Of a stretch of 64,000 bases of DNA, positions 16,546 through 28,796 are shown in pieces (positions within the stretch are counted from its first letter, which is position 1; each line of letters begins with the position of its first letter). The stretch covers positions 620,001 to 684,000 of the forward strand of contig NZ_SHLI01000001.1 in assembly GCF_004217415.1 (NCBI RefSeq). The letters run 5' to 3'. This DNA is from Spiribacter vilamensis (GTDB taxonomy: Bacteria > Pseudomonadota > Gammaproteobacteria > Nitrococcales > Nitrococcaceae). Both the position numbers and the translations under genes were made by a program. A model generated the notes under the pieces. The model was not told where the DNA came from. It was given only the letters and a program-made list of their open reading frames with translations, and ran no database searches.

Positions 16546-17697
16546 CTAGCCTGGGTGGCTGAGTTCCGACGCCCCAACGCTGGCGAACGAGGGGACGCCC
16601 AGCTGACCCAGGGCGCGGATCAATTCCAGCTGAAGGATCTCGAAGGCGCGCCCCACGCCGGCCTGGCCACCCGCGCCTACACCGTAGGCAAGTGCCCGGC
16701 CTGCAAAGGCGAAGTCGGCGCCGAGCGCCTTTGCCCGCAGGATATCCGCCCCCCGGCGCACACCACTGTCGAGAATAATCACCACACGGCCCGCGACTTC
16801 CTCCGCAATCGCCGGGAGCGCTTCAACGGTGGGTGGACCGAACGCAACCTGCCGACCGCCATGGTTGGACACGATGATGCCGTCACAACCGATGTCCACG
16901 CATTTCGCCGCATCCTCTGGATGCAGGATGCCTTTGACTAGAAGCTTGCCTTTCCAGCGTGCGCGCAGACGCTTCAGGTCATCCCAGGTGAAGCTCGGCG
17001 TGATCAGGGTCTTCTGGACATCCGCATAGGATGTTGCGTTTTGCAGAAGGTCTGCGTAGTTCGCGATGTTCGGCTTGCCGTGTATGAGTGTTTCCAGCGA
17101 CCAGCGCGGATTAGCCATCAGACCCGCGATCACCTCGGGCGTGATCCTGAACGGGACGGCCAGCTGGTTGCGGATGTCGCGATCCCTCTTGCCCGCTGCC
17201 GGGACATCAGCGGTGACGATCAGTGTGGTGTAGCCCGCCGCCTCGGCGCGCTGGATCAAGCTCTCGGTCACATCCGCATCGCTCGAGACGTAGAGCTGGA
17301 ACCAGCCGTTCCCGTCTGCCGCCTCGGCGAGGGACTCCAGTGTGGTGGACGCGGCGGAGCCTGCGACATAGGGGACGTTGTACTGCTTGCACAGCCTCGC
17401 CAGGGTCAGATCGGCACCGGGCCAGAACGCGTTGAGCATGCCGATGGGCGCCATCCCGAACGGCATATCGTAGGTCTGGCCGAAAAGCGTGGCCTTAGTG
17501 TCGAGTTCGGATACGTCCACCATGTAGCGGGGCGTCAGTTCAACCTCCTCGAAGGCCTCGATGTTGCGCCGCAGGTTGCGCTCGCTCTCGGCACCGCCGT
17601 CGACCAGATCAAAGGCGAAGCGAGGGATACGCCGCCTGGCTCGACGGCGAAGATCATCAATCGAAGCGGCACGATCCAGTCCCATCAGTTCGACCAC
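16546..17697 (-). CDS. lldD: FMN-dependent alpha-hydroxy-acid dehydrogenase, probably L-lactate dehydrogenase
   Basis: 383 residues, full-length for the family. FMN-binding TIM barrel with MPFGMAPIGML, the VTADVPAAGKRDRDIRN segment, a Lys in KLLVKGIL, catalytic His/Arg in SNHGGRQ and the phosphate loop LDSGVRRGADILRA. Oxidises L-2-hydroxyacids to 2-ketoacids. The neighbouring dehydrogenase and hydrolase genes would release L-lactate plus pyruvate, so L-lactate is the likely substrate. The frame begins 13 nt inside the SDR gene; a second ATG at 17685 is also possible. Glycolate or mandelate specificity cannot be excluded from sequence alone. Confidence 0.82.
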   Translation of the reverse strand: MVELMGLDRAASIDDLRRRARRRIPRFAFDLVDGGAESERNLRRNIEAFEEVELTPRYMVDVSELDTKATLFGQTYDMPFGMAPIGMLNAFWPGADLTLARLCKQYNVPYVAGSAASTTLESLAEAADGNGWFQLYVSSDADVTESLIQRAEAAGYTTLIVTADVPAAGKRDRDIRNQLAVPFRITPEVIAGLMANPRWSLETLIHGKPNIANYADLLQNATSYADVQKTLITPSFTWDDLKRLRARWKGKLLVKGILHPEDAAKCVDIGCDGIIVSNHGGRQVAFGPPTVEALPAIAEEVAGRVVIILDSGVRRGADILRAKALGADFAFAGRALAYGVGAGGQAGVGRAFEILQLELIRALGQLGVPSFASVGASELSHPG

Positions 17698-18428
17698 CCA
17701 CCGTCGATGGCAAAGGCTTGGCCCGTGGTAAAGGCCGATAGATCCCCCGCGAGGTAGCAGACCACTTCCGCGATTTCCTCGGGCCGGCCGAGCCGTCCCA
17801 TCGGCTGACGGTCCTTGAAGGCGGCGAGCGCCTTATCAAAATCACCTGTTGCGCTCAGGCGATCGTTTAGTGACGGGCTCTGTACCGTGCCGGGACAGAT
17901 CGCGTTACACCGAATGCCGTCTTTGACGAAATCGGCTGCAATGGATTTCGTCATGCCAACGATGGCCGCCTTCGATGCGCCATAGGCGAATCGGCGCGGT
18001 GCGCCTTTCTCACTCGAGACGATGGAGGCGATGTTGATGACCGACCCGCTCCCGGCATCCAGCATGCCGGGCAGAACGGCCTTGGTGATGCGGAATATCG
18101 CCTTGGCGTTCAGGTCGAAGGATCGATCCCAGACGGCCTCGTCACAGTCGAGGATCGTGCCGTCATGGACCCACCCGGCGCAGTTCAGCAGGATATTCAC
18201 GGGCGGGATGGATGCGATAAGGGATTCGACGGCTGAACCGTCAAGCACGTCGAGTTGGTAGCCGGTCATGTTCGGGTGGGTCTGTGCGAGGGCCTCGACC
18301 GCTGCACCATCGATGTCGGTGGCGATAACCCGGGCGCCGCGCGCGGCCATTGCTTCGGCACTGGCGCGTCCGATGCCGTTGGCGGCTGCTGTCACAAGGG
18401 CGGTCTTGCCCGTCAGTGTGTGTTCCAT
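17685..18428 (-). CDS. SDR, probable 2-keto-3-deoxy-L-fuconate dehydrogenase
   Basis: 247 residues from the ATG at 18428. Rossmann motif TAAANGIGRA (Gly-rich), NNAG equivalent written LNCAGWVHDGTILDC, catalytic Ser in NIASIVSS and Tyr/Lys in YGASKAA. The stretches LNCAGxVHxGTILDC, RCNAICPGTVQSPSL and FTTGQAFAIDGGWSN are what I recall of 2-keto-3-deoxy-L-fuconate (or rhamnonate) 4-dehydrogenases. Product would be 2,4-diketo-3-deoxy-L-fuconate, the substrate of the hydrolase encoded at 27939. Overlaps the lactate dehydrogenase gene; the two form one transcript with the SDR and M24 genes upstream. Confidence 0.82.
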   Translation of the reverse strand: MEHTLTGKTALVTAAANGIGRASAEAMAARGARVIATDIDGAAVEALAQTHPNMTGYQLDVLDGSAVESLIASIPPVNILLNCAGWVHDGTILDCDEAVWDRSFDLNAKAIFRITKAVLPGMLDAGSGSVINIASIVSSEKGAPRRFAYGASKAAIVGMTKSIAADFVKDGIRCNAICPGTVQSPSLNDRLSATGDFDKALAAFKDRQPMGRLGRPEEIAEVVCYLAGDLSAFTTGQAFAIDGGWSN

Positions 18429-18438
18429 TGCTTTTCTC

Positions 18439-19203
18439 CTAGCGGGCGAGCCAGCCGCCATCGACGGTGACCGTGCTCCCGTGGCAATAAGTGGCCGCAT
18501 CCGATGCCAGAAAGACAGCGGCGCCGGCGATTTCCGAGGGGTCTGCGAATCGACCCGCCGGGATGCGGTCCAGCAGGGCTTTGGCGCGATCCGGATCGTC
18601 ACGTAACGCCTGGGTATTCTCCGTCGCCGTATAACCCGGTGCGATGCTGTTGACGTTGACGCCGTGTGGCGCCCACTCATTGCAGAGTGCTTTGGTCAGG
18701 CCCAGAACCGCGTGTTTGCTGGAGGCGTAGGCCGGTACACGAAGACCGCCCTGCGAGCCGAGCACGGACGATACGATGATGATCCTGCCAGCCCCCTGGG
18801 CGACCATGCGCTTGCCGGCGGCCTGGGAGAGCAGCCAGACCGAGTCGAGGTTGACTGACAATACGCGCTGCCAGTCCCCCATCGCCATTTCGGTGCTGTC
18901 CTCGCGATGGATGATCCCGGCGTTGTTGACCAGGATATCCAGACCGCCGAGTGCGTCCGAGGCGAAGGTGACGACGTCTTCGGCGGCAGCCTGGTTCATG
19001 CCCGTAAAATCGGCTTTGACGGCCGCGCTTTTGCCGCCCGCCGCCTCGATGCCGGCGAGGGCCTCATCGGGCTGGTGAGTGCGATAAGTCAGGGCCACAT
19101 CGGCCCCGGCGGCGGCAAGGCCGAGGGCGATGCCTTCGCCGATGCCGGTTGCCCCGCCGGTAACCAGCGCCTTGCGGCCGGTCAGATCGAATGGATTGCT
19201 CAT
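18439..19203 (-). CDS. SDR, KduD/gluconate-5-dehydrogenase-like
   Basis: 254 residues from the ATG at 19203. Cofactor motif TGGATGIGEGIA, NNAGIIHRE, Ser in IVSSVLGSQGG, YASSKHA active site and C-terminal HGSTVTVDGGWLAR. Closest in feel to 2-dehydro-3-deoxy-D-gluconate 5-dehydrogenase (KduD) and 2-deoxy-gluconate dehydrogenases. In this cluster it probably oxidises a sugar or sugar acid. It begins 2 nt after the stop of the M24-fold gene and ends 10 nt before the next SDR. Substrate cannot be read from sequence. Confidence 0.78.
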   Translation of the reverse strand: MSNPFDLTGRKALVTGGATGIGEGIALGLAAAGADVALTYRTHQPDEALAGIEAAGGKSAAVKADFTGMNQAAAEDVVTFASDALGGLDILVNNAGIIHREDSTEMAMGDWQRVLSVNLDSVWLLSQAAGKRMVAQGAGRIIIVSSVLGSQGGLRVPAYASSKHAVLGLTKALCNEWAPHGVNVNSIAPGYTATENTQALRDDPDRAKALLDRIPAGRFADPSEIAGAAVFLASDAATYCHGSTVTVDGGWLAR

Positions 19204-19205
19204 GA

Positions 19206-20504
19206 TTAGTACCGGTTCGCGATGGGCAGATCTTCGGCGGGAAAGAGCGAAATGATCTCGCACCCTTCCGGCGTGACCACCACTTCCTCTTCGATCCGTG
19301 CGGCGGAGTAGCCGTCTGTCGCCGGACAGTAGGTCTCCAGCGCAAAGACCATACCGGTCTGAATCTCCATCGGGTGATCAAGGCTGACGGCGCGGCTGAT
19401 GATCGGGCGCTCATGCAGGGCAAGGCCGAGCCCGTGGCCGAACTGTAGCCCGAAAGCCGCCTCTTCGGAGGGGAAGCCGAAATCCTCCGCCCTGGGCCAG
19501 ACCGCGGCCACTTTGTCAGTCGTAACGCCGGGCCGGATCATCGCGATCGAGGCATCAATCCACTCGCGGGCCTTGACGTAAGCGTCGTTCTGCGACGGCG
19601 TAGAGCGCCCGATGTTGAATGTCCGGTAGTAGCAGGTGCGATAACCCTGGTAGCTCTGCAGGATATCGAAGAAGGCCTGGTCACCCGGGCGGAACAGGCG
19701 ATCGGTGAAGTTGTGGGGGTGTGGATTGCAGCGCTCGCCGCTGATTGCATTGATCGCCTCGACGTCGTCGCTACCCATCTGGTAGAGCATCTTGTTGCTG
19801 TAGGCAACGATGTCGTTTTCGCGTACGCCGGGCTTCAGCTCCTCGTAGATCATGTGATAGACGCCATCGACCATCGAGGCCGCCTGTGTCAGGAGCTGGA
19901 TCTCGTCCCAGTTCTTGATCTCGCGCGCCGACAGCATGATCTGCTGGCCATCGACCACGTTGAGCCCTTCCTCCTTGAGCGCGTGGAACATCGCAGTCTC
20001 GGCGTAATCCACACCCACGGGCATGTCGGCCATGCCGGCCTCCTTGATCAGCCGCGCAATGTCTCTGGCATAGCGTCGCATCAGGCCGAACTCCGGCGGG
20101 ATCGTCCCGCGCATGCCGACCACACCCGCAAGGCAATGGCTTGGCTCGAGCCAGTCGGAATACTTCTGGTGATGCACGGCGGCCGAGCCGAAATCCCACA
20201 CATAGGGACTGTCGTCGCCGGTGAGCAGGCAGAAGCGACACATCTTGTCGCGCTCCCACTCGCCGATCTTGGTGGAGCTGACATAGCGGATGTTGTTCAC
20301 ATCGAACAGTAATAGCGTGCCCGCGCCCGACGCTTGCAGCGCCTGTCGTGTGCGGGCCAGGCGATAACGACGCAGTCGGTCGTGGTCGATACGCCGCTCG
20401 AAATCGACGGACATATGACCGGGCGACGGTAGCTTCGATTCCCACTGCCAGTTCGGTTGCAGGTCCTGCGGCGTCAGTAGATTGGGCATGAGGGCGCGTG
20501 TCAT
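19206..20504 (-). CDS. Creatinase/prolidase-fold (M24) protein with altered metal site
   Basis: 432 residues from the ATG at 20504 (GAGGAG 7 nt upstream). N-terminal creatinase-N domain (RRIDHDRLRRYRLAR to about residue 190) and C-terminal pita-bread domain. Candidate metal ligands: Asp in AFFDILQ, His in GHGLGL, Glu in ALETY and Glu in RIEEEV are present, but the second Asp of the family (GYxxDxxRT) is Cys here (GYRTCYYRTF). It is therefore not a standard aminopeptidase or prolidase; creatinases have lost metal binding altogether, and the Cys could still ligate a metal. DddP DMSP lyases share the fold but have three Asp. It sits inside a sugar-acid operon, so a C-N or C-O bond hydrolase acting on a modified sugar acid is one guess. 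Confidence 0.75.
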   Translation of the reverse strand: MTRALMPNLLTPQDLQPNWQWESKLPSPGHMSVDFERRIDHDRLRRYRLARTRQALQASGAGTLLLFDVNNIRYVSSTKIGEWERDKMCRFCLLTGDDSPYVWDFGSAAVHHQKYSDWLEPSHCLAGVVGMRGTIPPEFGLMRRYARDIARLIKEAGMADMPVGVDYAETAMFHALKEEGLNVVDGQQIMLSAREIKNWDEIQLLTQAASMVDGVYHMIYEELKPGVRENDIVAYSNKMLYQMGSDDVEAINAISGERCNPHPHNFTDRLFRPGDQAFFDILQSYQGYRTCYYRTFNIGRSTPSQNDAYVKAREWIDASIAMIRPGVTTDKVAAVWPRAEDFGFPSEEAAFGLQFGHGLGLALHERPIISRAVSLDHPMEIQTGMVFALETYCPATDGYSAARIEEEVVVTPEGCEIISLFPAEDLPIANRY

Positions 20505-20592
20505 GAGTTGTCTCCTCGGTGCGGGGGCAATCCGCACTGTTCTTGTGTGTCGGGAAAGGCGGTAAACGGGCGCAAGGGCAATGATTGCGGTC

Positions 20593-21402
20593 TCACTGGA
20601 TGCACCATCCGCCGTCGATGTGGATCATCTGTCCGGTCATGTAGTCGCTGTCACCACTGGCGAGAAAAGAGGCGGTCCCGGTGATGTCCCTGGGGTAGGA
20701 GACTCGCTTGATCTGTAGGAAATTGTTGACGATGTCTTCGTAGGCCTGACCCTCGCGTTCCTTGAAACCCATGTTGATCAGGTCTTTGTCGAGTTGCTCC
20801 CACAGCGGCGTTACCACCACACCGGGCGCAAAGCCATTAACGGTGATGTTGTGCTCGGCAAGCCCGATCGCCCCGCAGTGGGTCAGCGCCAGGCAACCGT
20901 ATTTCGATGTGCAATAAACCGTTACATCGATAAGCGGCTTGCGCGAGGCAATCGATCCGACGTTAATGAGTTTGTACGGGTGATCCTCCATCGGGCCCTG
21001 CTCGATCATCTGGCGGGCTACTTCCTGCATTCCCAGCCACATCGCCTTGGTGTTGACGTTCATGATCATGTCCCAGTTGTCTTCATCGATATCCATGAAA
21101 AACCGGGGCTTGTTGAGGCCTGCATTGAACATCCCCACGTTGATCGAACCGAATGCTTCGACCGTGGCTGCGACGGCGCTCGCGTTGTCCTCGCGTTTGG
21201 TGACATCCATCCTGACAGCGATGGCGCGGCCGTTACCGGCATCGTTGATGCGCTCGGCAACCTTCTGCGCCTCGTCCGGATCCAGATCTCCGAGGCATAC
21301 GTTTGCCCCTTGCGCGGCGAAGCTCTCGGCATTGGCGGCACCCATGCCGCGGGCCGCACCGGTGATCAGAATGTTCTTGCCTTTAAGGCGGTCGGGATCC
21401 AT
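20593..21402 (-). CDS. SDR oxidoreductase (sugar or polyol dehydrogenase-like)
   Basis: 269 residues with AGGAGGAG just upstream. Gly motif TGAARGMGAANA, acidic Asp after beta-2 (LGDLDPDEA) suggesting NAD(H), catalytic Ser in VGSIASRK and YCTSKYG (Tyr/Lys), and a terminal IDGGWC. An unusual insert (EQGPMEDHPYK) precedes the catalytic Ser. Third SDR of the operon. Possibly the first oxidation of the imported sugar, but no substrate-specific signature is visible. Confidence 0.75.
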   Translation of the reverse strand: MDPDRLKGKNILITGAARGMGAANAESFAAQGANVCLGDLDPDEAQKVAERINDAGNGRAIAVRMDVTKREDNASAVAATVEAFGSINVGMFNAGLNKPRFFMDIDEDNWDMIMNVNTKAMWLGMQEVARQMIEQGPMEDHPYKLINVGSIASRKPLIDVTVYCTSKYGCLALTHCGAIGLAEHNITVNGFAPGVVVTPLWEQLDKDLINMGFKEREGQAYEDIVNNFLQIKRVSYPRDITGTASFLASGDSDYMTGQMIHIDGGWCIQ

Positions 21403-21426: not shown

Positions 21427-23184
21427 CTATTCAGGGTTTGCGATGAGCGTGTCGGCCCTTTCCTGGGCCTGGCTGAGTGCGGCGCGGGGGCTGATCCGGC
21501 CGCGCAGCATGTCGTGGAACTCCTCGCCGCAGATCTGGACAATCCCGGTAATTTCGGGGATCGGTGGCCGCGGCCAGAACTGCAGTTCATCGCGCCAGGA
21601 CATGGCGTCCACGGCCTCGAAAATCGGCGAGGCGCGCCTCACTTCGGCATCTGCCCCGACGCTGTAGCGTGGACTGGTGCGGCTGCCGCTCTGGACGTAT
21701 AGCTTCTGGGCCTCGGGACTGGTGAAAACGCGCAGTGCCTCGACTGCCGCTGCAGCCCGCTCCGGGGCAAGGTTGGCCGGAATACCCATCGCGTAGCCAC
21801 CGATGGGTGCAACATTGGCCATGCCTGGTCCACTCGGATGCGGCAGGTAGCCGGTCTGCCCGTGCGCGGGTGACGATGGATTGAGTTCGAAATAGGGAGC
21901 GAGGAGCGTATACCCATAGGCCATGGCGACATGGCCCTCCGAGTAAGCGCGCATGCGCTCGTACCACGACATCGAGAGGGTCTGGGGCGGTGCGTATTGC
22001 AGCAGCTCCACGAGGTACTCGGCCGCCATCAGTCCGCGCTCGGTATCAATGGTCGCGCAATAGTCACGGGCAGCCAGCGTGTCGGTGTCAAAACCTCTGC
22101 TCGTCACGGGCAGGTCGAGTACGGGCTGGCCGAAATCCGCCATTGTCATTAAAACGGTATGGCCAAGCGCGGTGCCTCGTGCCCCGTTGAAGGCCATGCC
22201 GTAGAGGCCTTTTCGAGGCGCGTGCAGCTCGCGTGCCGCGTCCAGCAACTGGCCAGTGGTTGCCGGTGGCTCCAGCCCCGCCGCGGTCAGAAGATCACGG
22301 CGATAGAGCAAAAGCTCCGGTGTGGTTTGCGCCGGCACGCCATAGGGCCGCCCGCCCCAGTGGATCGCTTTCCAGCCGGCCGTGTGGAAATCCGCCGGGT
22401 CGAGTCGTGTCATGTCCATGATCTCGTCGAGCGGCATCAGGATATCCTTCTCGGCGAATTCACCGATCCAGGGCAGATCCAGTGCGATGATGTCGTAGCG
22501 GCTGAATGTGCGCTCGGCGTTGCGCAGCGCCTCGGCGCGCAGGCGATCAATGGAGAAGGCGCGCTGATGGATCTGCGTACCGATCACCTGCTCGAACTGG
22601 CGCTTGAAGTTTTCCATCACCATGAACGTCGGATCGCCATGCACGAGCACGCGCATGCCGCCAGCCAGCTTGAGGGGCTCGGATAGCGCCTGGATCGGCG
22701 GGATCGTGCGGCCGGTCATGTAGGACCCGCCGTAATAATAGTCGTGCGTCTCTTCGCGACTACTCTGATCGCTGAAATAGGTCGCCGCCAGATTGCGTAC
22801 CTGCCTCGACATCTGGGTCCACTGATTGAGCAGTTTTTCGCTGGGGTGCATCGAAAAACGCTTACCCGACCGGGTGCGTGGGCGCTGGTCAATCAGTCCG
22901 GCCTCGATCATTTCCCTGAGCCGCCTGTTGGCGGTCGCGTACGGGACATTACTTGCAGCGATCAAGGACGTGGGTGTCATTACCTTGCCTTCGAGATGCC
23001 GTTTGATCGCGTGTAGCGCCATGCGGAACACCGGGTTGGGATCGTGGAGATCAACCGTGGCCTCCAGTTCATTGGTGCATTCCTCCAGGTAGGAAAGAAC
23101 GCGGAACAAATCGCCTCCCTCCGGCGATCCTTGTCCCGCCTTTTCCACGTTCATGTTCATTTCGGATGAACTCGTTTTCGTCAT
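21427..23184 (-). CDS. Transcription regulator: winged helix fused to an ABC sugar-binding (SBP family 1) domain
   Basis: 585 residues from the ATG at 23184. Residues about 50-115 form a winged helix-turn-helix (TPTSLIAASNVPYATANRRL as recognition region, then a basic wing RPRTRSGKRF). From about 175 onward the sequence is an UgpB/MalE-type solute-binding protein (GMRVLVHGDP, YDIIALDLPWIGEF, GRPYGVPAQTTPELLLYRRDLL, GGYAMGIPA). There is no signal peptide, so this binding domain is cytoplasmic and should act as the ligand sensor. E. coli SgrR is a known precedent with a family-5 binding domain; the family-1 version is uncommon to me. Divergent from the sugar importer and last-upstream gene of the catabolic operon; it likely controls both through the 23239-23272 repeat. 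Confidence 0.82.
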   Translation of the reverse strand: MTKTSSSEMNMNVEKAGQGSPEGGDLFRVLSYLEECTNELEATVDLHDPNPVFRMALHAIKRHLEGKVMTPTSLIAASNVPYATANRRLREMIEAGLIDQRPRTRSGKRFSMHPSEKLLNQWTQMSRQVRNLAATYFSDQSSREETHDYYYGGSYMTGRTIPPIQALSEPLKLAGGMRVLVHGDPTFMVMENFKRQFEQVIGTQIHQRAFSIDRLRAEALRNAERTFSRYDIIALDLPWIGEFAEKDILMPLDEIMDMTRLDPADFHTAGWKAIHWGGRPYGVPAQTTPELLLYRRDLLTAAGLEPPATTGQLLDAARELHAPRKGLYGMAFNGARGTALGHTVLMTMADFGQPVLDLPVTSRGFDTDTLAARDYCATIDTERGLMAAEYLVELLQYAPPQTLSMSWYERMRAYSEGHVAMAYGYTLLAPYFELNPSSPAHGQTGYLPHPSGPGMANVAPIGGYAMGIPANLAPERAAAAVEALRVFTSPEAQKLYVQSGSRTSPRYSVGADAEVRRASPIFEAVDAMSWRDELQFWPRPPIPEITGIVQICGEEFHDMLRGRISPRAALSQAQERADTLIANPE

Positions 23185-23238
23185 CTCTACCACGCCCCTA
23201 CGGTGTTCAAATTGGTAAAACCAAGATATCGGGTTTTT

Positions 23239-23272
23239 ATCCATACCGGATAAATAAATATCCGATATGGAT
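23239..23272. promoter_or_regulatory. Inverted-repeat operator in the regulator/importer divergent promoter
   Basis: ATCCATACCGGATA, six A/T bases, then TATCCGATATGGAT: 13 of 14 positions pair. A further half-like ATATCGG lies at 23226-23232. The repeat is between the two divergent start codons, 5 nt upstream of a candidate -35 for the importer, the expected place for the fused winged-helix regulator to bind. Confidence 0.72.
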
Positions 23273-23276
23273 AGAA

Positions 23277-23364: not shown

Positions 23365-24315
23365 ATGAAATTCCAGACTATTCTTGCCGCTGCTGCAGCG
23401 AGCACCGCGGTGGTTGGCGTCGCACAGGCCGAGACTTACAAGATCGGCATCACACAGAACAATGTAGGCGTCGACAGTTACCAGACGACTTATGAACAGG
23501 CATTCGTCGATGCCGCCAACGCCAATGATCGCGTGGAGGCGGTAGTGCTCGACGCCGGCGGTGACGTAGCTCGCCAGATTGCGCAGATGGAGAACCTGAT
23601 CCAGCAAGGAGTCGATGCCATCATTATCTGGCCGACTAACGGCGAGGCGGTTATCCCTGCTGTCAGAAAAGCGAAGCAAGCCGACATCCCGGTCGTCGTC
23701 ACCAACTCCAATATCGACGAGAAAGGCTTTGACTTCATCTCTTCTTTTTCGGGGCCGGACAACATTGCGCAGGGCGCCACCGCGGCCGAAGTGATGTGTG
23801 ACCGGTTCAAGGCTCTGGGCATCGCTGACGAGGCGCAGATTGTCGAGATTACCGGCCAGCCGGGCTATACCACGGCAATCGAGCGCTCGGATGGTTTTAC
23901 CGAGCGTCTTCCAGAGATCTGTCCCAACGTGGAACTGGTCGATAGCCAGCCCGGAGACTGGAACCGCGAAAAGGCGCAGACGGTGATGGAGGCGTTTCTC
24001 ACCAAGTATGACGACATCGATGGTGTCTACGCGGGTGATGACAATATGGGAGTGGGTGGCCTCAATGCGGCAATGGCCGCGGGACGCGAGGGCATTACCT
24101 TCGTTGGTGCAACCAATTTCGCCGTGGGCTACGAGGCGATGGCAAACGGTGATTACTGGGGTTCGATTTATCAGTCACCGGTCGACGACGCCCGGGCAGC
24201 GCTTGAGACCGCGGTTGATATCCTCGACGGCGTCGATGTGCCGTTCCTCAACTACTTTGAGACGCCAGCGATCACGCAGGACAACATGGGTGAGTTCACC
24301 AAGCCGGTGTTCTGA
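23365..24315 (+). CDS. Sugar ABC transporter periplasmic binding protein (RbsB/XylF type)
   Basis: 316 residues. Signal peptide (KFQTILAAAAASTAVVGVAQA), then a type I periplasmic binding fold: YKIGITQNNVGVDSYQT, MENLIQQGVDAIIIWPTNGEAV, ITGQPGYTTAIERSDGF, GVYAGDDNMGVGGLNA. Strong AGGAGGAG ribosome site. Belongs to the ribose/xylose/rhamnose carbohydrate group (peripl_BP_4). Feeds the two permeases and ATPase that follow. Sugar not identified; the catabolic genes point to a 6-deoxy-hexose such as L-fucose or L-rhamnose, or their acids. Confidence 0.88.
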   Translation: MKFQTILAAAAASTAVVGVAQAETYKIGITQNNVGVDSYQTTYEQAFVDAANANDRVEAVVLDAGGDVARQIAQMENLIQQGVDAIIIWPTNGEAVIPAVRKAKQADIPVVVTNSNIDEKGFDFISSFSGPDNIAQGATAAEVMCDRFKALGIADEAQIVEITGQPGYTTAIERSDGFTERLPEICPNVELVDSQPGDWNREKAQTVMEAFLTKYDDIDGVYAGDDNMGVGGLNAAMAAGREGITFVGATNFAVGYEAMANGDYWGSIYQSPVDDARAALETAVDILDGVDVPFLNYFETPAITQDNMGEFTKPVF

Positions 24316-24395: not shown

Positions 24396-25370
24396 ATGGT
24401 GGCACTCACTAGAAAGGACATGGGCCAATTCCTTGCTCGGCAAGGCATCCTGGTGGCCTTTGTCCTGTTCATGATCCTTTTCACACTGGCTAATGACCGG
24501 TTTCTTGACCCCGATAACATCATGGGTGTCGTCCGGTCCTCGGCCATTCTCGGGGTGATGGCGCTCGGCGTGACCTTTGTTGTCATCAGCGGCAATCTCG
24601 ACCTCTCGGTCGGCTCGATGATGTCCTTCTCCACGATTGTTGTTCTCGATCTGCACGACAAGATCGGCCCGGCGCTCGCCATTCCCGCCATGTTTGCGAT
24701 GACGTTATGCCTCGGGGCTTTCATCGGCTTTCTCGTCGGTTACCTGAAACTCAATTCTCTGATTGTGACCCTGGGGATGCTGTCAGCCATTCATGGGCTA
24801 ACGCTCACCTACTCGGGCGGCAAGAACATGGATATCGACGACATGGCGGGAACCTGGTTCGGTATGTTCGGGCGGGGAGATGTGCTCGGTATACCAACGC
24901 CCATCCTCATCTTCCTTTCCCTCGCCGCTGTGCTCGGTGTGATGCTCGCCAAGACACCCTTCGGGCGCAAGGTTTATGCCGTTGGCGGTAACGGGACGGC
25001 GGCCACGTTCTCCGGCATTCCGCGCGCCCGGGTCGTATTCAGCTGCTACCTGGTCTCGGCTTTTTGCGTCGCCACCGCCGGGCTTTTGCAGGCCAGCCGT
25101 TCAATGGGTTCACAAAACACCGTCGGCCAAGGGCTCGAGCTCGAAGTGCTCGCGGCGGTGATCCTCGGCGGCGCGTCGCTGATGGGCGGGGCAGGGACGA
25201 TTTTCAAGACAGTGATCGGCGTGCTGATCCTTGGCTTTATCCAGAATGGGCTCCTGCTCGTCGGTCTGCCGTTCTATGCCCAGTATGTCGTGACCTGGGT
25301 CATCATCATCCTCGCGGTCTGGCTCGATATTGCGGCAAAGCGTGGCGGCCTCTGGTCCCCCATCGCGTGA
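24396..25370 (+). CDS. Sugar ABC transporter permease 1 (RbsC type)
   Basis: 324 residues, eight to ten membrane helices. Family motifs: GVVRSSAILGVMALGVTFVVISGNLDLSVGSMMSF near the N-terminus and the cytoplasmic EAA-like loop LEVLAAVILGGASLMGGAGTIFKTVIG. Pairs with the second permease 14 nt downstream to make a heterodimeric channel, unusual relative to the single RbsC of ribose systems but seen in rhamnose and AI-2 type importers. A second in-frame ATG at 24420 is possible as a start. Confidence 0.87.
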   Translation: MVALTRKDMGQFLARQGILVAFVLFMILFTLANDRFLDPDNIMGVVRSSAILGVMALGVTFVVISGNLDLSVGSMMSFSTIVVLDLHDKIGPALAIPAMFAMTLCLGAFIGFLVGYLKLNSLIVTLGMLSAIHGLTLTYSGGKNMDIDDMAGTWFGMFGRGDVLGIPTPILIFLSLAAVLGVMLAKTPFGRKVYAVGGNGTAATFSGIPRARVVFSCYLVSAFCVATAGLLQASRSMGSQNTVGQGLELEVLAAVILGGASLMGGAGTIFKTVIGVLILGFIQNGLLLVGLPFYAQYVVTWVIIILAVWLDIAAKRGGLWSPIA

Positions 25371-25384
25371 ACAGGAAGACAGCA

Positions 25385-26386
25385 ATGCAACCGAGCACCC
25401 TCAAAATATTTCTGAAAAGCGGCGCGATCTGGGGATTCATCGTTTTCGAACTGATCTTTTTCACCGTCGCGGGCCAGTTCCTGTCGCTCAGCGAGACCGC
25501 TTTCATGGACGTCGACAACATGCTGCTACTTTTCAAGCAGTCGGCGCCCATTGGCATAATTGCGATGGGCATGACGATCGTCATGATCAACGGCAATATC
25601 GATCTCAGTGTCGGAGCGACCTACGCGCTCAGCGCCGTCGTGATGCTCGACTCCATGACCTGGCCGATCTTCGCGGGCCTCGGCGACTGGGTCATCCCCG
25701 TGGCCTGGGCCCTGGCGCTGCTGACCGGCACCGTGCTCGGTGCGATCAATGGACTGATCGTATGGAAAACCGGGGTTGATGCCTTCATCGTCACCCTCGG
25801 CGCAATGCTGGGCTATCGCGGGCTCGTGTTCATGTATAACGGTGAACAGCCCACGTCCCACCTCAACTGGACGCTGGTGGACTTCGCGGAGGCGCAGTTC
25901 CTCGGGCTGCATTCCGCCACCTGGTTCTTGTTACTGGTCACGGCCGTGATCTGGTTTCTGATGAACAGGACCGTCCACGGCCGCAACGCCTATGCCATTG
26001 GCAATAACCGTGAGGCGGCGGTTAACGCCGGGATCCGGGTCGGGCCGCATATGTTGATCAACTTCATGATTATCGGCTTTCTCGCCGCACTGTCGGCGGT
26101 GGTGTTCTATTCGGAAAGCGGCTCGGTCAACCCCAACGACGGAATGCTCTATGAGCTCTGGGTAATCACCGCGGTTGTTCTGGGCGGGACAAAACTCGCC
26201 GGCGGGGCGGGGTCAATTATCTCGACTTTTGGCGGCGTACTGGCAATCCAGCTCCTGCGCAAGGGCCTGTCGCACATCGGTGCCGACACCTCGACAGTCA
26301 ATCTCGTGATCGGCCTGATCCTGATCGCGGTACTGCTTCTCGACCGGCAATTGAATACAAAAGGTAAGGAGGAGTTGAAGATATGA
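25385..26386 (+). CDS. Sugar ABC transporter permease 2 (RbsC type)
   Basis: 333 residues from the ATG at 25385 with AGGAAGA upstream. Motifs mirror permease 1: QSAPIGIIAMGMTIVMINGNIDLSVGATYAL, GVDAFIVTLGAMLGYRGLVFM, and LYELWVITAVVLGGTKLAGGAGSIISTFGG. The frame is open farther upstream (to 25064) but that part overlaps permease 1 in another frame. The stop overlaps the ATPase start by 4 nt (ATGA), so the two are translated together. Confidence 0.87.
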   Translation: MQPSTLKIFLKSGAIWGFIVFELIFFTVAGQFLSLSETAFMDVDNMLLLFKQSAPIGIIAMGMTIVMINGNIDLSVGATYALSAVVMLDSMTWPIFAGLGDWVIPVAWALALLTGTVLGAINGLIVWKTGVDAFIVTLGAMLGYRGLVFMYNGEQPTSHLNWTLVDFAEAQFLGLHSATWFLLLVTAVIWFLMNRTVHGRNAYAIGNNREAAVNAGIRVGPHMLINFMIIGFLAALSAVVFYSESGSVNPNDGMLYELWVITAVVLGGTKLAGGAGSIISTFGGVLAIQLLRKGLSHIGADTSTVNLVIGLILIAVLLLDRQLNTKGKEELKI

Positions 26387-27894
26387 CCGCGCAATCCCCT
26401 GTGCTTCGACTGGAAGGCATCGTCAAGACCTTCCCCGGCGTACGTGCCCTGGACGGTGTCTCGCTCACCATTATGCCAGGTGAGGTTCACGCCCTGATGG
26501 GGGAGAACGGCGCCGGGAAATCGACTCTGATGAAAGTGCTCGGCGGTATCCATCAACCCGATGAGGGTCGGATTATCGTGGGCGAACAGCCGGTGACGAT
26601 GTCTGGCCCGCTGGATGCCAAGGCCAAGGGAATCGTGTTCATCCACCAGGAGCTCAGCCTCGCCGAGGAGCTGAGCGTCGCGGAGAACATCTACCTCGGC
26701 GAACTGCCACGCAAGCGTTTCGGGCTACTGGACCGGGCCGAGCTCGAGACCAGGACCAACCGGATCCTTGACCGGCTCAAGGTGGGGTTCAATGCCCGAA
26801 CCCGTGTCGGTGACCTGTCGATTGCCAATCAACAGATGGTGGAAATCGCGCGTGCACTCACTGTGGATGCCAAGGCAGTGATTTTTGACGAGCCGACTGC
26901 CTCGCTGACGGATGCCGAGAAGGTCGTGCTCTTCGAGGTAATTTCGAGCCTGCAGGAACAGGGCGTCGGCATCGTGTACATCTCTCACAGGATGGAAGAG
27001 GTGTTCAAGATTACCGACCGGATCAGCGTGCTCCGCGATGGTCAGTTCCAGGGTACCGTTAATACCGCCGACACCGACGAGGAAGGGGTGACCCACATGA
27101 TGATCGGGCGCAAGCTCGATCTGAGCCGCGTCGAATGCCATCACGAACTGGGTGAAGTGGCGCTCGAAGTACGGGGCCTGTCTTGTGGGCACCTGTTCGA
27201 GGATGTGAGCTTCGAGGTGCGCAGTGGTGAGGTCGTGGGCTTTTACGGGCTCGTAGGTGCCGGGCGTACCGAGATCGCCGAGACACTTTTCGGCCTGCGC
27301 GAACCATCAGCCGGTTCGATTTATCTCGGTGGCGAACTCGTGCGCATTCATTGTCCGGCCGATGCGATTGCGCGGGGCATTTCGCTTGTTCCCGAAAATC
27401 GCAAAACACAGGGTCTGGTGCTGGGCATGAATTGCCGTGACAACATGACTTTAGCGCAGTGCGATGATCTGAAGGCCGGACCGTTCGTGGCCGAGGGCTC
27501 CGAAATCGCTATTTTCGACCAGTATCGCGACCGCCTGGACATCCGCACACCGGGCTGGAAGCAGCTGGTGTGCAACCTCTCGGGGGGCAATCAGCAGAAA
27601 ATCGTCATCGGGAAGTGGCTGTCGATGCATCCTCGGGTGCTGATCGTCGACGAGCCGACACGCGGTATCGATGTGGGCAGCAAATCGGAGATCCACAATC
27701 TCATCCGCGAGCTGGCGGCACAGGGTTATGCGGTCATAGTGATCTCCTCGGAAATGCCCGAGGTGCTGCATGTCTCGGACCGCGTTGTCGCGATGTACTC
27801 CGGTCGTGTCATGCGGACTTTCAGCGCCGGAGAGGTCACCGAGGATAGCCTTATCCAGGCTATTTCCGGTATCGAGCCCGAACAGGCGGCCTGA
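26383..27894 (+). CDS. Sugar ABC transporter ATPase with two nucleotide-binding domains (RbsA/MglA type)
   Basis: 503 residues, the usual size for a fused RbsA-type ATPase. First domain: Walker A GENGAGKST, signature-like LSIANQQMVEIARAL (a degenerate LSGGQ), Walker B AVIFDEPTASL. Second domain: degenerate GLVGAGRTE in place of Walker A, signature LSGGNQQKIVIGKWL and Walker B VLIVDEPTRGIDVG. This asymmetry is normal in the family. Energises uptake with the two permeases. Confidence 0.92.
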   Translation: MTAQSPVLRLEGIVKTFPGVRALDGVSLTIMPGEVHALMGENGAGKSTLMKVLGGIHQPDEGRIIVGEQPVTMSGPLDAKAKGIVFIHQELSLAEELSVAENIYLGELPRKRFGLLDRAELETRTNRILDRLKVGFNARTRVGDLSIANQQMVEIARALTVDAKAVIFDEPTASLTDAEKVVLFEVISSLQEQGVGIVYISHRMEEVFKITDRISVLRDGQFQGTVNTADTDEEGVTHMMIGRKLDLSRVECHHELGEVALEVRGLSCGHLFEDVSFEVRSGEVVGFYGLVGAGRTEIAETLFGLREPSAGSIYLGGELVRIHCPADAIARGISLVPENRKTQGLVLGMNCRDNMTLAQCDDLKAGPFVAEGSEIAIFDQYRDRLDIRTPGWKQLVCNLSGGNQQKIVIGKWLSMHPRVLIVDEPTRGIDVGSKSEIHNLIRELAAQGYAVIVISSEMPEVLHVSDRVVAMYSGRVMRTFSAGEVTEDSLIQAISGIEPEQAA

Positions 27895-27938: not shown

Positions 27939-28796
27939 ATGAAATTTCTCCGCCATGGCGCTCCCGGTGCCGAAAAACCCGGTCTGCTCGACACATCGGG
28001 CCGCGTGCGCGATCTCTCGGACAGGGTTCCGGATATCGCCGGCCAAACACTGGGGGCCGCCAATCTGAAAGCCCTACAGGATCTGGATATCGATTCGTTA
28101 CCTGTTGTTGAAGGTACGCCCCAGGAGGATTTGCGACTCGGTCCCTGTGTCGGAGGCATTGGCAAGTTCATTTGCATCGGCCTGAATTATGCGGATCACG
28201 CCGAAGAAGCGGGCATGCCAATCCCCAAAGAGCCGATCATCTTCAATAAATGGACCTCGGCCGTTGTCGGGCCGAATGATGCGATCCAGGTCCCGCGCCA
28301 TTCCGTGAAAACCGACTGGGAGGTAGAGCTCGGCGTTGTCATCGGCGACCCTGGTGTCTACATCGACGAGGCGGATGCAATGCGCCATGTGGCGGGGCTT
28401 TGCGTCATCAACGATGTGTCCGAGCGCGAATTCCAGAACGAGCGTGCCGGTACCTGGGACAAAGGCAAGGGTTGCGATACTTTCGGGCCGACCGGCCCGT
28501 GGCTTGTTACGCTCGATGAGATCAGCGATGTCAACGCGCTGGAACTATGGCTCGATGTCGACGGTGATCGGATGCAGACCGGCTCAACGGCGACACTGAT
28601 CTTCAACGTCCCGCAGCTTGTCTCTTATTGCAGCCAGTTCATGAGCCTGCAGCCGGGAGACGTCATTTCAACCGGCACACCGCCAGGCGTCGGCATGGGC
28701 CAGTCCCCCCAGCGCTTCCTGCATGGCGGAGAGACGGTGTCGCTAGGGATCACCGGCCTGGGTGAGCAGAGGTCGAGCGTCCTGCCCGCTGGCTAA
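27939..28796 (+). CDS. Probable 2,4-diketo-3-deoxy-L-fuconate hydrolase (FAH family)
   Basis: 285 residues, AAGGA 7 nt before the ATG. Fumarylacetoacetate-hydrolase fold: IGKFICIGLNYADHAEE, KWTSAVVGPND, metal-binding DWEVELGVVIG (Glu ligands) and VAGLCVINDVSERE, and the C-terminal GDVISTGTPPGVG. Homologues of this size, often labelled ureidoglycolate lyase, cleave 2,4-diketo-3-deoxy-L-fuconate to pyruvate and L-lactate. The dehydrogenase making this substrate (17685) and a lactate dehydrogenase (16546) are in the divergent operon. Same transcript as the importer. Confidence 0.82.
   Translation: MKFLRHGAPGAEKPGLLDTSGRVRDLSDRVPDIAGQTLGAANLKALQDLDIDSLPVVEGTPQEDLRLGPCVGGIGKFICIGLNYADHAEEAGMPIPKEPIIFNKWTSAVVGPNDAIQVPRHSVKTDWEVELGVVIGDPGVYIDEADAMRHVAGLCVINDVSEREFQNERAGTWDKGKGCDTFGPTGPWLVTLDEISDVNALELWLDVDGDRMQTGSTATLIFNVPQLVSYCSQFMSLQPGDVISTGTPPGVGMGQSPQRFLHGGETVSLGITGLGEQRSSVLPAG

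Follow-up and report, generated by a model that had tools for sequence, protein, structure and literature searches.

The window analysed here is a stretch of 64,000 nucleotides from Spiribacter vilamensis (contig NZ_SHLI01000001.1, positions 620,001 to 684,000), and the subject of this work is one of its genes, which encodes a protein joining a MarR-like winged helix-turn-helix (wHTH) to a family-1 solute-binding protein (SBP). The gene stands divergent from a sugar importer of the ATP-binding cassette (ABC) type and is followed by a series of genes for dehydrogenases and other enzymes. Two copies of a 15-bp dyad, here called O1 and O2, lie between the divergent genes, and a third, O3, lies within the first codons of the regulator itself (Table 1). 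Taken together, these features point to a regulator family that has probably gone unrecognised and whose operator can be read from sequence.

A winged helix fused to a family-1 solute-binding domain

The C-terminal part of the protein was recognised without difficulty, the Pfam model SBP_bac_1 (PF01547) matching residues 230–494 far over its cut-off (E 4e-25, 89.8 bits against 26) and SBP_bac_8 aligning to residues 229–517. The top phmmer match in the Protein Data Bank (PDB) was 5iai, a sugar ABC-transporter binding protein (E 1e-27, regulator residues 180–579), and a family profile reached 5iai at E 5e-49 and the TMBP structure 1eu8 at E 2e-39. An AlphaFold2 model of the full regulator, built from a 30-row alignment, has a mean predicted local distance difference test score (pLDDT) of 85 and displays wHTH helices and a wing at residues 21–137 (helices 21–43, 51–64, 71–77, 82–94, and 116–137, strands 98–102 and 110–114), disorder with pLDDT <50 at residues 1–22 and 138–158, and a two-lobed SBP from about residue 160 onward, which superposes on 5iai with a template modelling (TM) score of 0.90 by target length (Foldseek). 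As to the wHTH, its match in Pfam was MarR_2 at residues 56–103 (E 9e-5), with 22.9 bits under the cut-off of 27; modelled separately it reached a pLDDT of 90, and its own PDB matches were mostly of MarR type but weak (best E 6e-4, two at E <=0.001, TM about 0.5 by query length).

No segment resembling a signal peptide or a membrane helix was detected in the regulator by hydropathy, the only measure applied (Kyte–Doolittle). The best 19-residue mean is 0.9 over the whole protein and 0.7 between its two domains, compared with 1.4 on the same scale for the signal peptide, of a known type, of the neighbouring importer SBP; the maxima of 30 family members span 0.9–1.45. This lack of export and membrane signals supports a cytoplasmic location. 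A membrane-anchored layout like that of ToxR was ruled out, there being no hydrophobic segment between the wHTH and the SBP.

The fusion is conserved. A genome scan yielded 491 confirmed relatives, of which the best 80 were kept, so that close relatives are over-represented; these 80 loci (65–81% identity, mostly Rhodobacterales) are related by descent, and all conservation counts given below describe non-independent events. The match spans from residue 43 or earlier to residue 578 or later in every one of them. Further relatives that were scanned with Pfam all carried SBP_bac_1 over its cut-off (10/10), and an HTH model exceeded its cut-off in 2 of 11 scanned members (HTH_IclR in locus L013 and in one paralogue at locus L158), with every HTH model under it in the other nine. 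When the N-terminal module (wHTH plus linker) was used as a query, within Pseudomonadota only, 6 of 398 genomes gave strong matches (>150 bits, our own included) and 18 gave weak ones (<50 bits), and in a class sample centred on genome G456 strong matches came from 8 of 385 genomes (>125 bits) and weak ones again from 18. All 14 strong loci checked have the SBP as well, at 30–73% identity. The first-pass annotation had described this same fusion without signal peptide, proposed a structural comparison of its C-terminal part and placed it divergent from a sugar importer. These observations are confirmed, and its interpretation is partly supported, namely in the architecture, the cytoplasmic location and the presence of an intergenic operator.

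Paired dyads between the divergent genes

The predicted operator motif is the 15-bp dyad TATCCATWTTGGATA. The dyads TATCCGATATGGATA and TATCCATACCGGATA are found between the divergent genes, 21 bp apart from centre to centre, and the exact pattern TATCC-N5-GGATA has no occurrence in the 2,076,021-base genome other than O1 and O2 (a reversed control pattern occurs nowhere). With one mismatch allowed there are 20 further places, versus 8 for the reversed control. The earlier description of a 14-bp inverted repeat at this position needs amending: the repeat is real and does lie between the divergent genes, but it consists of two 15-bp dyads, accompanied by the intragenic third and by a degenerate fourth site, O2b.

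Of the 80 loci, 75 have a pair at 21-bp spacing with a score of 15 or more out of 20, and in 53 the score is 17 or more, compared with at most 29 and 1, respectively, for any other spacing between 15 and 44 bp. The controls reached 15 in 4 of 1600 Markov-resampled upstream regions and in 1 of 1600 windows taken elsewhere in the loci, and never 17. Across 144 related genomes, the pair pattern appeared at the regulator locus of G000 (our own genome) and G010, both of which carry the gene, and at one chance site, i.e., the pair is nearly unique and co-occurs with the gene. We also scored with a weight matrix 14 loci that were not part of the training set, L096 among them being nearly identical to the training locus L021. 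The 21-bp pair is kept in all seven loci whose regulators are at least 51% identical (pair scores 28.6–42.3, with the best pair in their downstream windows at -0.3 or lower). Less identical loci have single dyads, strong in L125, L127, and L128 (18.5), of 12.4 in L119 and weak in L122 and L142 (9.7). Among still more distant relatives, 8 of 19 upstream regions contain a site above 11, a score that 0–8% of random windows from the same locus reach. These sites include TATCCGAAACGGATA at the divergent promoter of the Rhizobium/Sinorhizobium loci L145 and L010 and TGTCCGGATTGGATA in L009, all with regulators 33–34% identical, and GATCCAAATTGGATG in Aminobacter (L012, 28% identical, where two regions were tried). 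Single operator-like dyads were also seen about 3.0–3.2 kb upstream of the regulator, within importer genes, at seven loci (L040, L055, L068, L081, L088, L090, and L093); these could be remote operators or conserved coding sequence.

The third dyad, O3, stands at 81–86 bp from O2 in 59 of 79 loci (L015, one of the 80, is the same genome as L002 or a near-copy of it and is left out of the 79-locus counts). It opens 16 nt downstream of the start codon's first base, and that codon is backed by homologues, as an ATG (43) or GTG (14) is found at the window's distance from O3 in 57 of these 59 loci. The residues that O3 encodes vary (e.g., SSKSDK, PSNLNN, and SSRMNI), and no other columns of this coding stretch, start codon aside, are as well conserved as its dyad positions. 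Another 11 of the 79 loci have, in place of O3, a site 33–35 bp from O2. The corresponding degenerate site, O2b, scores above 3 by position weight matrix (PWM) in 28 of the 79, 11 of them without O3 and 17 with it.

Table 1. Positions of the regulator gene, its domains, the predicted regulatory sites, and the neighboring genes within the window
Feature	Positions	Strand	Basis
Regulator gene, wHTH plus family-1 SBP, 585 aa	21427..23184	-	Open frame, Pfam, AlphaFold2
MarR-like wHTH, residues 21-137	22774..23124	-	AlphaFold2 elements; MarR-type PDB matches
Disordered linker, residues 138-160	22705..22773	-	pLDDT <50 at 138-158; no hydrophobic segment
Family-1 solute-binding domain, residues 161-585	21430..22704	-	SBP_bac_1; 5iai superposition; family profile
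O1, 15-bp dyad	23259..23273	.	Exact TATCC-N5-GGATA
O2, 15-bp dyad, 21 bp from O1	23238..23252	.	Exact TATCC-N5-GGATA
Putative -10 of regulator promoter (TATCTT)	23223..23228	-	Conserved TAnnnT past O2
O2b, degenerate fourth site, 34 bp from O2	23204..23218	.	Conserved TTGAACA-like half
O3, dyad inside regulator codons 6-11, 84 bp from O2	23154..23168	.	PWM 13.9 in window
Divergent sugar ABC importer SBP (Peripla_BP_4, RbsB-like)	23365..24315	+	Pfam
Importer permease 1 (BPD_transp_2)	24396..25370	+	Pfam
Importer permease 2, start approximate	25400..26386	+	tblastn census: 50-92% identical homologues here in 75/80 loci
Importer ATPase, two ABC_tran stretches	26383..27894	+	Pfam
FAA_hydrolase-family enzyme, after importer	27939..28796	+	Pfam
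SDR dehydrogenase 1, next gene after regulator	20593..21402	-	Pfam
M24 peptidase/creatinase-like enzyme	19206..20537	-	Pfam
SDR dehydrogenase 2, ORF (open reading frame) start probably too far upstream, domain from residue 92	17685..18680	-	Pfam
FMN-dependent (L-lactate type) dehydrogenase	16546..17697	-	Pfam

Promoters, proposed mechanism and rival explanations

On the regulator's side of the pair, a TAnnnT element is kept 9–14 nt past O2 (T in 77, A in 69, and T in 59 of the 79 loci), followed by the degenerate site (19–33 nt), a purine-rich Shine–Dalgarno sequence (40–44 nt; AGGGG at 23195–23199 in the window) and the start codon. O2 would thus fall on the -35 region of the regulator's own promoter, which makes autorepression the natural reading. 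Toward the importer, an element on the strand of that operon that resembles a -10 box is conserved 33–38 nt beyond O1 (A in 74, T in 75, and G in 76 of the 79 loci), its pattern agreeing with a -10 element at the two positions where such elements are most conserved, and no conserved -35 was found between O1 and this element. With O1 and O2 upstream of the putative importer promoter, their position is activator-like.

We propose, with a probability of about 0.7 for the reading as a whole, that the protein is a cytoplasmic one-component regulator that uses the dyads as operators and its SBP domain as a sensor, represses its own gene and activates the importer. Dimers of the MarR-like wHTH would bind the 15-bp dyads TATCCATWTTGGATA, two of them sitting on O1 and O2 along one face of the helix (21 bp being two turns), and the MalE-type Venus-flytrap domain would close on a sugar or on an intermediate of the neighboring pathway, shifting the dimers on O1, O2, and O3. 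O3, eight turns away in the 5' coding sequence of the regulator, may act as an auxiliary site, either for looping or as a roadblock. The regulator's own promoter would be repressed through three sites, O2 covering the -35 region, O2b close to the transcription start, and O3 within the gene, and the divergent importer would be controlled from the upstream position, the dyad centres lying at about -52 and -73 from the inferred start.

The alternative that we consider to have some weight, if a minority one, is a plain repressor of both divergent promoters, in which O1 and O2 would block transcription in both directions until the ligand releases the protein, with no activation at all. MarR-like wHTH regulators do usually repress, and both the location of O2 on the regulator's own promoter and that of O3 within its coding sequence would suit such a role; it is on the importer side that this explanation fits less well, as the -10-like element 33–38 nt beyond O1 leaves the two dyads upstream of the core promoter, not over it.

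The sensing role attributed to the SBP domain draws on its binding pocket. In the profile alignment to TMBP (1eu8), residues D236, W239, Y464, and R539 of the regulator stand opposite D, W, W, and R of TMBP, which presumably contact the sugar in that protein. W239, G462–G463, and R539 are invariant over the 30-row family alignment, and D236 is replaced by N in some members. Because these pocket-aligned residues are kept, the domain looks ligand-competent, and it may sense a sugar or a pathway intermediate in the cytoplasm. The domain could instead dock on a partner, either the importer or an enzyme, without any free ligand, so that transport activity is what is sensed, as in the couples MalT–MalK and Mlc–PtsG; the neighboring importer, moreover, has an SBP of its own, of a different type. 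We regard this as unlikely, given the invariance or near-invariance of the residues aligned with the sugar pocket, and given permeases of the kind served by Peripla_BP_4 proteins, on which docking of a family-1 SBP would be unexpected. The difference in SBP type (family 1 versus Peripla_BP_4) also ruled out that the sensor had been copied from the SBP of the neighboring importer.

Several observations weigh against the proposed mechanism. In a class sample of 190 genomes, the strict pair pattern missed all four sampled carriers (G222, G456, G560, and G635), because their sites deviate, being more degenerate or single, and the three genomes in which it did occur were chance cases, none with a regulator match to the N-terminal module. 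Outside the training set, the seven less identical loci lack the 21-bp pair, and one of them (L126) has no site of any kind. Eleven of the 19 distant upstream regions show no site above 11, including those of Agrobacterium (L008), Shinella (L144), and the Paraburkholderia relatives, and the single sites of 9.7 there do not rise above background (reached by 0.11–0.19 of random windows). Nine of the 79 loci have neither O3 nor O2b at the thresholds used. The window itself keeps only two of the three conserved positions of the importer -10-like element, the A at -38 (74/79) being a G, and a generic scan of the window for sigma-70 promoters and terminators found no promoter, or anything else, so that the promoter assignments are drawn from conservation.

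Another possibility is that the dyads serve a different regulator and that the fused protein is simply their neighbor, a reading favored by the 11 of 19 distant upstream regions in which no clear site was seen. Nevertheless, this is very unlikely: among the window's relatives the double dyad is present in both gene-carrying genomes versus 1 of 142 without the gene, there is no third exact copy in our own genome, one site is located inside the gene itself, and similar dyads stand beside regulators only 28–34% identical in other operons. Finally, it is hardly credible that the protein is an ordinary periplasmic SBP whose N-terminus was extended by chance or by a wrongly called start, even if 11 of the 13 annotated relatives carry the name "extracellular solute-binding protein" (the other two being an "ABC-type sugar transport system, periplasmic component" and a "hypothetical protein"). 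The wHTH is in frame, takes a folded form in the model and is joined to an SBP at 14 of 14 distant strong matches, no signal-like segment was seen by hydropathy, and related stand-alone SBPs (e.g., that of Ensifer, 425 aa) have a typical signal sequence at that end. An annotation mis-start is ruled out by those 14 loci together with the start codon that O3 fixes in 57 of 59.

Distribution, gene neighborhood, and comparison with known regulators

Within the set of 144 related genomes the gene was found in two, G000 and G010, which belong to the 14 genomes of our own genus. L015, with 81% identity, matches the same-genus genome G010, and its host is probably a gammaproteobacterium of the Ectothiorhodospiraceae. 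The best relatives of the gene beyond that are in Rhodobacterales (L017 with 79% identity and L016 with 78%), it clusters with L017, L018, L020, and L003 in a tree of the SBP part, and the gene order of the Roseovarius locus L017 is much like that of the window. These facts suggest a probable horizontal transfer of the locus into the lineage of the window. The tree (45 fused and 11 stand-alone SBPs) implies at least three changes between fused and stand-alone labels as drawn, of which the strongly supported branches force one, and is thus compatible with one origin of the fusion or with several; its stand-alone rows are on long branches. A tblastn search of plasmids gave 73 records; coverage reached 80% or more in 40 of them, and many of the remainder are stand-alone SBPs. 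Genome G456 (contig 50, L158) encodes the fused regulator three times, with two of these paralogues lying within 10 kb, adjoining a GMC oxidoreductase, a Gfo/Idh protein, and a Peripla_BP_4 protein.

The weak matches to the N-terminal module are other proteins. Five of the eight inspected have a receiver domain followed by a C-terminal wHTH and three have an HTH only; because they include such response regulators, the wHTH module is, as judged from domain composition, paired with at least two types of sensor. Response regulators of Alphaproteobacteria with a C-terminal wHTH of the regulator's type were seen at L101, L103, L105, L129, and L134.

A tblastn census of neighbors over the 80 loci, some of which end at contig ends, found the importer SBP and the first SDR dehydrogenase in 79 each, the M24 enzyme in 75, the permeases likewise in 75, and the ATPase in 74. 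The genes further downstream come in alternative sets, either FMN-dependent dehydrogenase (30/80) plus FAA hydrolase (26/80), as in the window, or E1 subunits of a 2-oxo-acid dehydrogenase (40/80). The latter, interchangeable module was observed to consist of E1/E2 2-oxo-acid dehydrogenase plus a semialdehyde dehydrogenase (loci L015–L094). A 1.4-Mb alphaproteobacterium (G560) has the same core of importer, SDR, M24, and E1. The first-pass annotation had placed the regulator in front of sugar-acid genes; the genes found are SDR, M24, SDR, and FMN-dependent dehydrogenase downstream of it and the FAA hydrolase after the importer, and the sugar-acid role stays plausible rather than proven. We also observed that an M24 "peptidase" of creatinase/DddP-like type is conserved within this sugar-import operon.

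Rhizobial relatives (L009, L010, L145, L146, and L012) have other neighbors, i.e., Gfo/Idh and other dehydrogenases, YciI, and an intradiol dioxygenase, with a maleylacetate reductase also beside the regulator in L009, L010, L145, and L012. Such a set could convert a cyclitol or sugar into a ring of the hydroxyquinol type and then cleave that ring. Because it differs from the core of importer, SDR, and M24, the regulator family, to judge by its neighbors, accompanies sugar or cyclitol catabolism through several pathways rather than one.

Among known systems, the nearest in layout are SgrR of Escherichia coli and DsvR of Vibrio, the latter comprising an HTH and SBP_bac5 and the former being negatively autoregulated (PMC13060122). 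They resemble the present family in carrying an N-terminal HTH in front of a solute-binding domain of ABC type, in being cytoplasmic, and in their autoregulation, which is proposed for the window protein, but have SBP_bac_5 where the window protein has SBP_bac_1 and a MarR-like wHTH, and a small RNA as neighbor instead of a sugar importer, dehydrogenases, and a paired 15-bp dyad. Neither SBP_bac_5 nor SgrR_N matched the regulator at E <=0.1, SBP_bac_1 and SBP_bac_8 being the only SBP profiles found in Pfam, and the N-terminal part was matched by MarR_2 and other HTH profiles.

LacI/GalR proteins likewise consist of an HTH and a sugar-binding Venus-flytrap fold, which is however a type I periplasmic-binding fold with the LacI HTH, and neither that HTH nor Peripla_BP_1/3 gave a Pfam match to the regulator at E <=0.1. 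LysR proteins combine a wHTH with a two-lobed binding domain, and divergent autorepression plus activation is typical of them; here the SBP domain is of full-size MalE type, and HTH_1 and LysR_substrate had no match to the regulator at E <=0.1 (Pfam). MarR proteins have a similar wHTH with long flanking helices, and the PDB fold matches, weak as they are, were mostly of their type, but they carry no SBP domain and the regulator falls under the Pfam MarR cut-offs. The nearest relatives of the wHTH module found outside the family are response regulators of Alphaproteobacteria (5 of 8 inspected with Response_reg over cut-off), which have the wHTH after the receiver and not before an SBP. Periplasmic family-1 SBPs (5iai, TMBP 1eu8, and MalE) share the fold and profile of the C-terminal domain; the regulator differs from them in its fusion to a wHTH, in the absence at the locus of a matching family-1 permease pair, and in lacking an export signal as far as hydropathy can tell, its N-terminus being a disordered tail followed by the wHTH. 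The protein thus appears to work like one-component regulators of the SgrR, LacI, and LysR types, yet it fails their domain definitions.

GntR-type HTH plus SBP_bac_1 architectures may exist in Firmicutes, which would make the bare architecture less novel. No characterised family of wHTH plus SBP_bac_1 regulators, nor any paper on one, was found in the open-licence papers searched. A man-made counterpart is provided by chimeric SiaP–LacI regulators, in which a transporter binding protein and a DNA-binding domain form a sugar sensor (PMC13188862); these are engineered and use another binding protein, unlike the natural family described here.

It is about an even bet, in our view, that the family constitutes an unrecognised class of transcription factors extending from Alphaproteobacteria into Gamma- and Betaproteobacteria, with a captured MalE-type sensor, one dyad code across sugar and cyclitol operons, a LysR-like combination of autorepressor and activator, an intragenic operator in one clade, and an undescribed pathway under its guard (importer plus SDR plus M24, with two interchangeable downstream modules). 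Nature itself would here have captured the domain of a family-1 SBP, the very class that engineers try to make into sensors, and the family would offer a ready scaffold for sugar biosensors. If this is true, proteins that are mostly annotated as extracellular transport components would be cytoplasmic transcription factors, and with an operator that can be named from sequence, their regulons and ligands would be directly testable.

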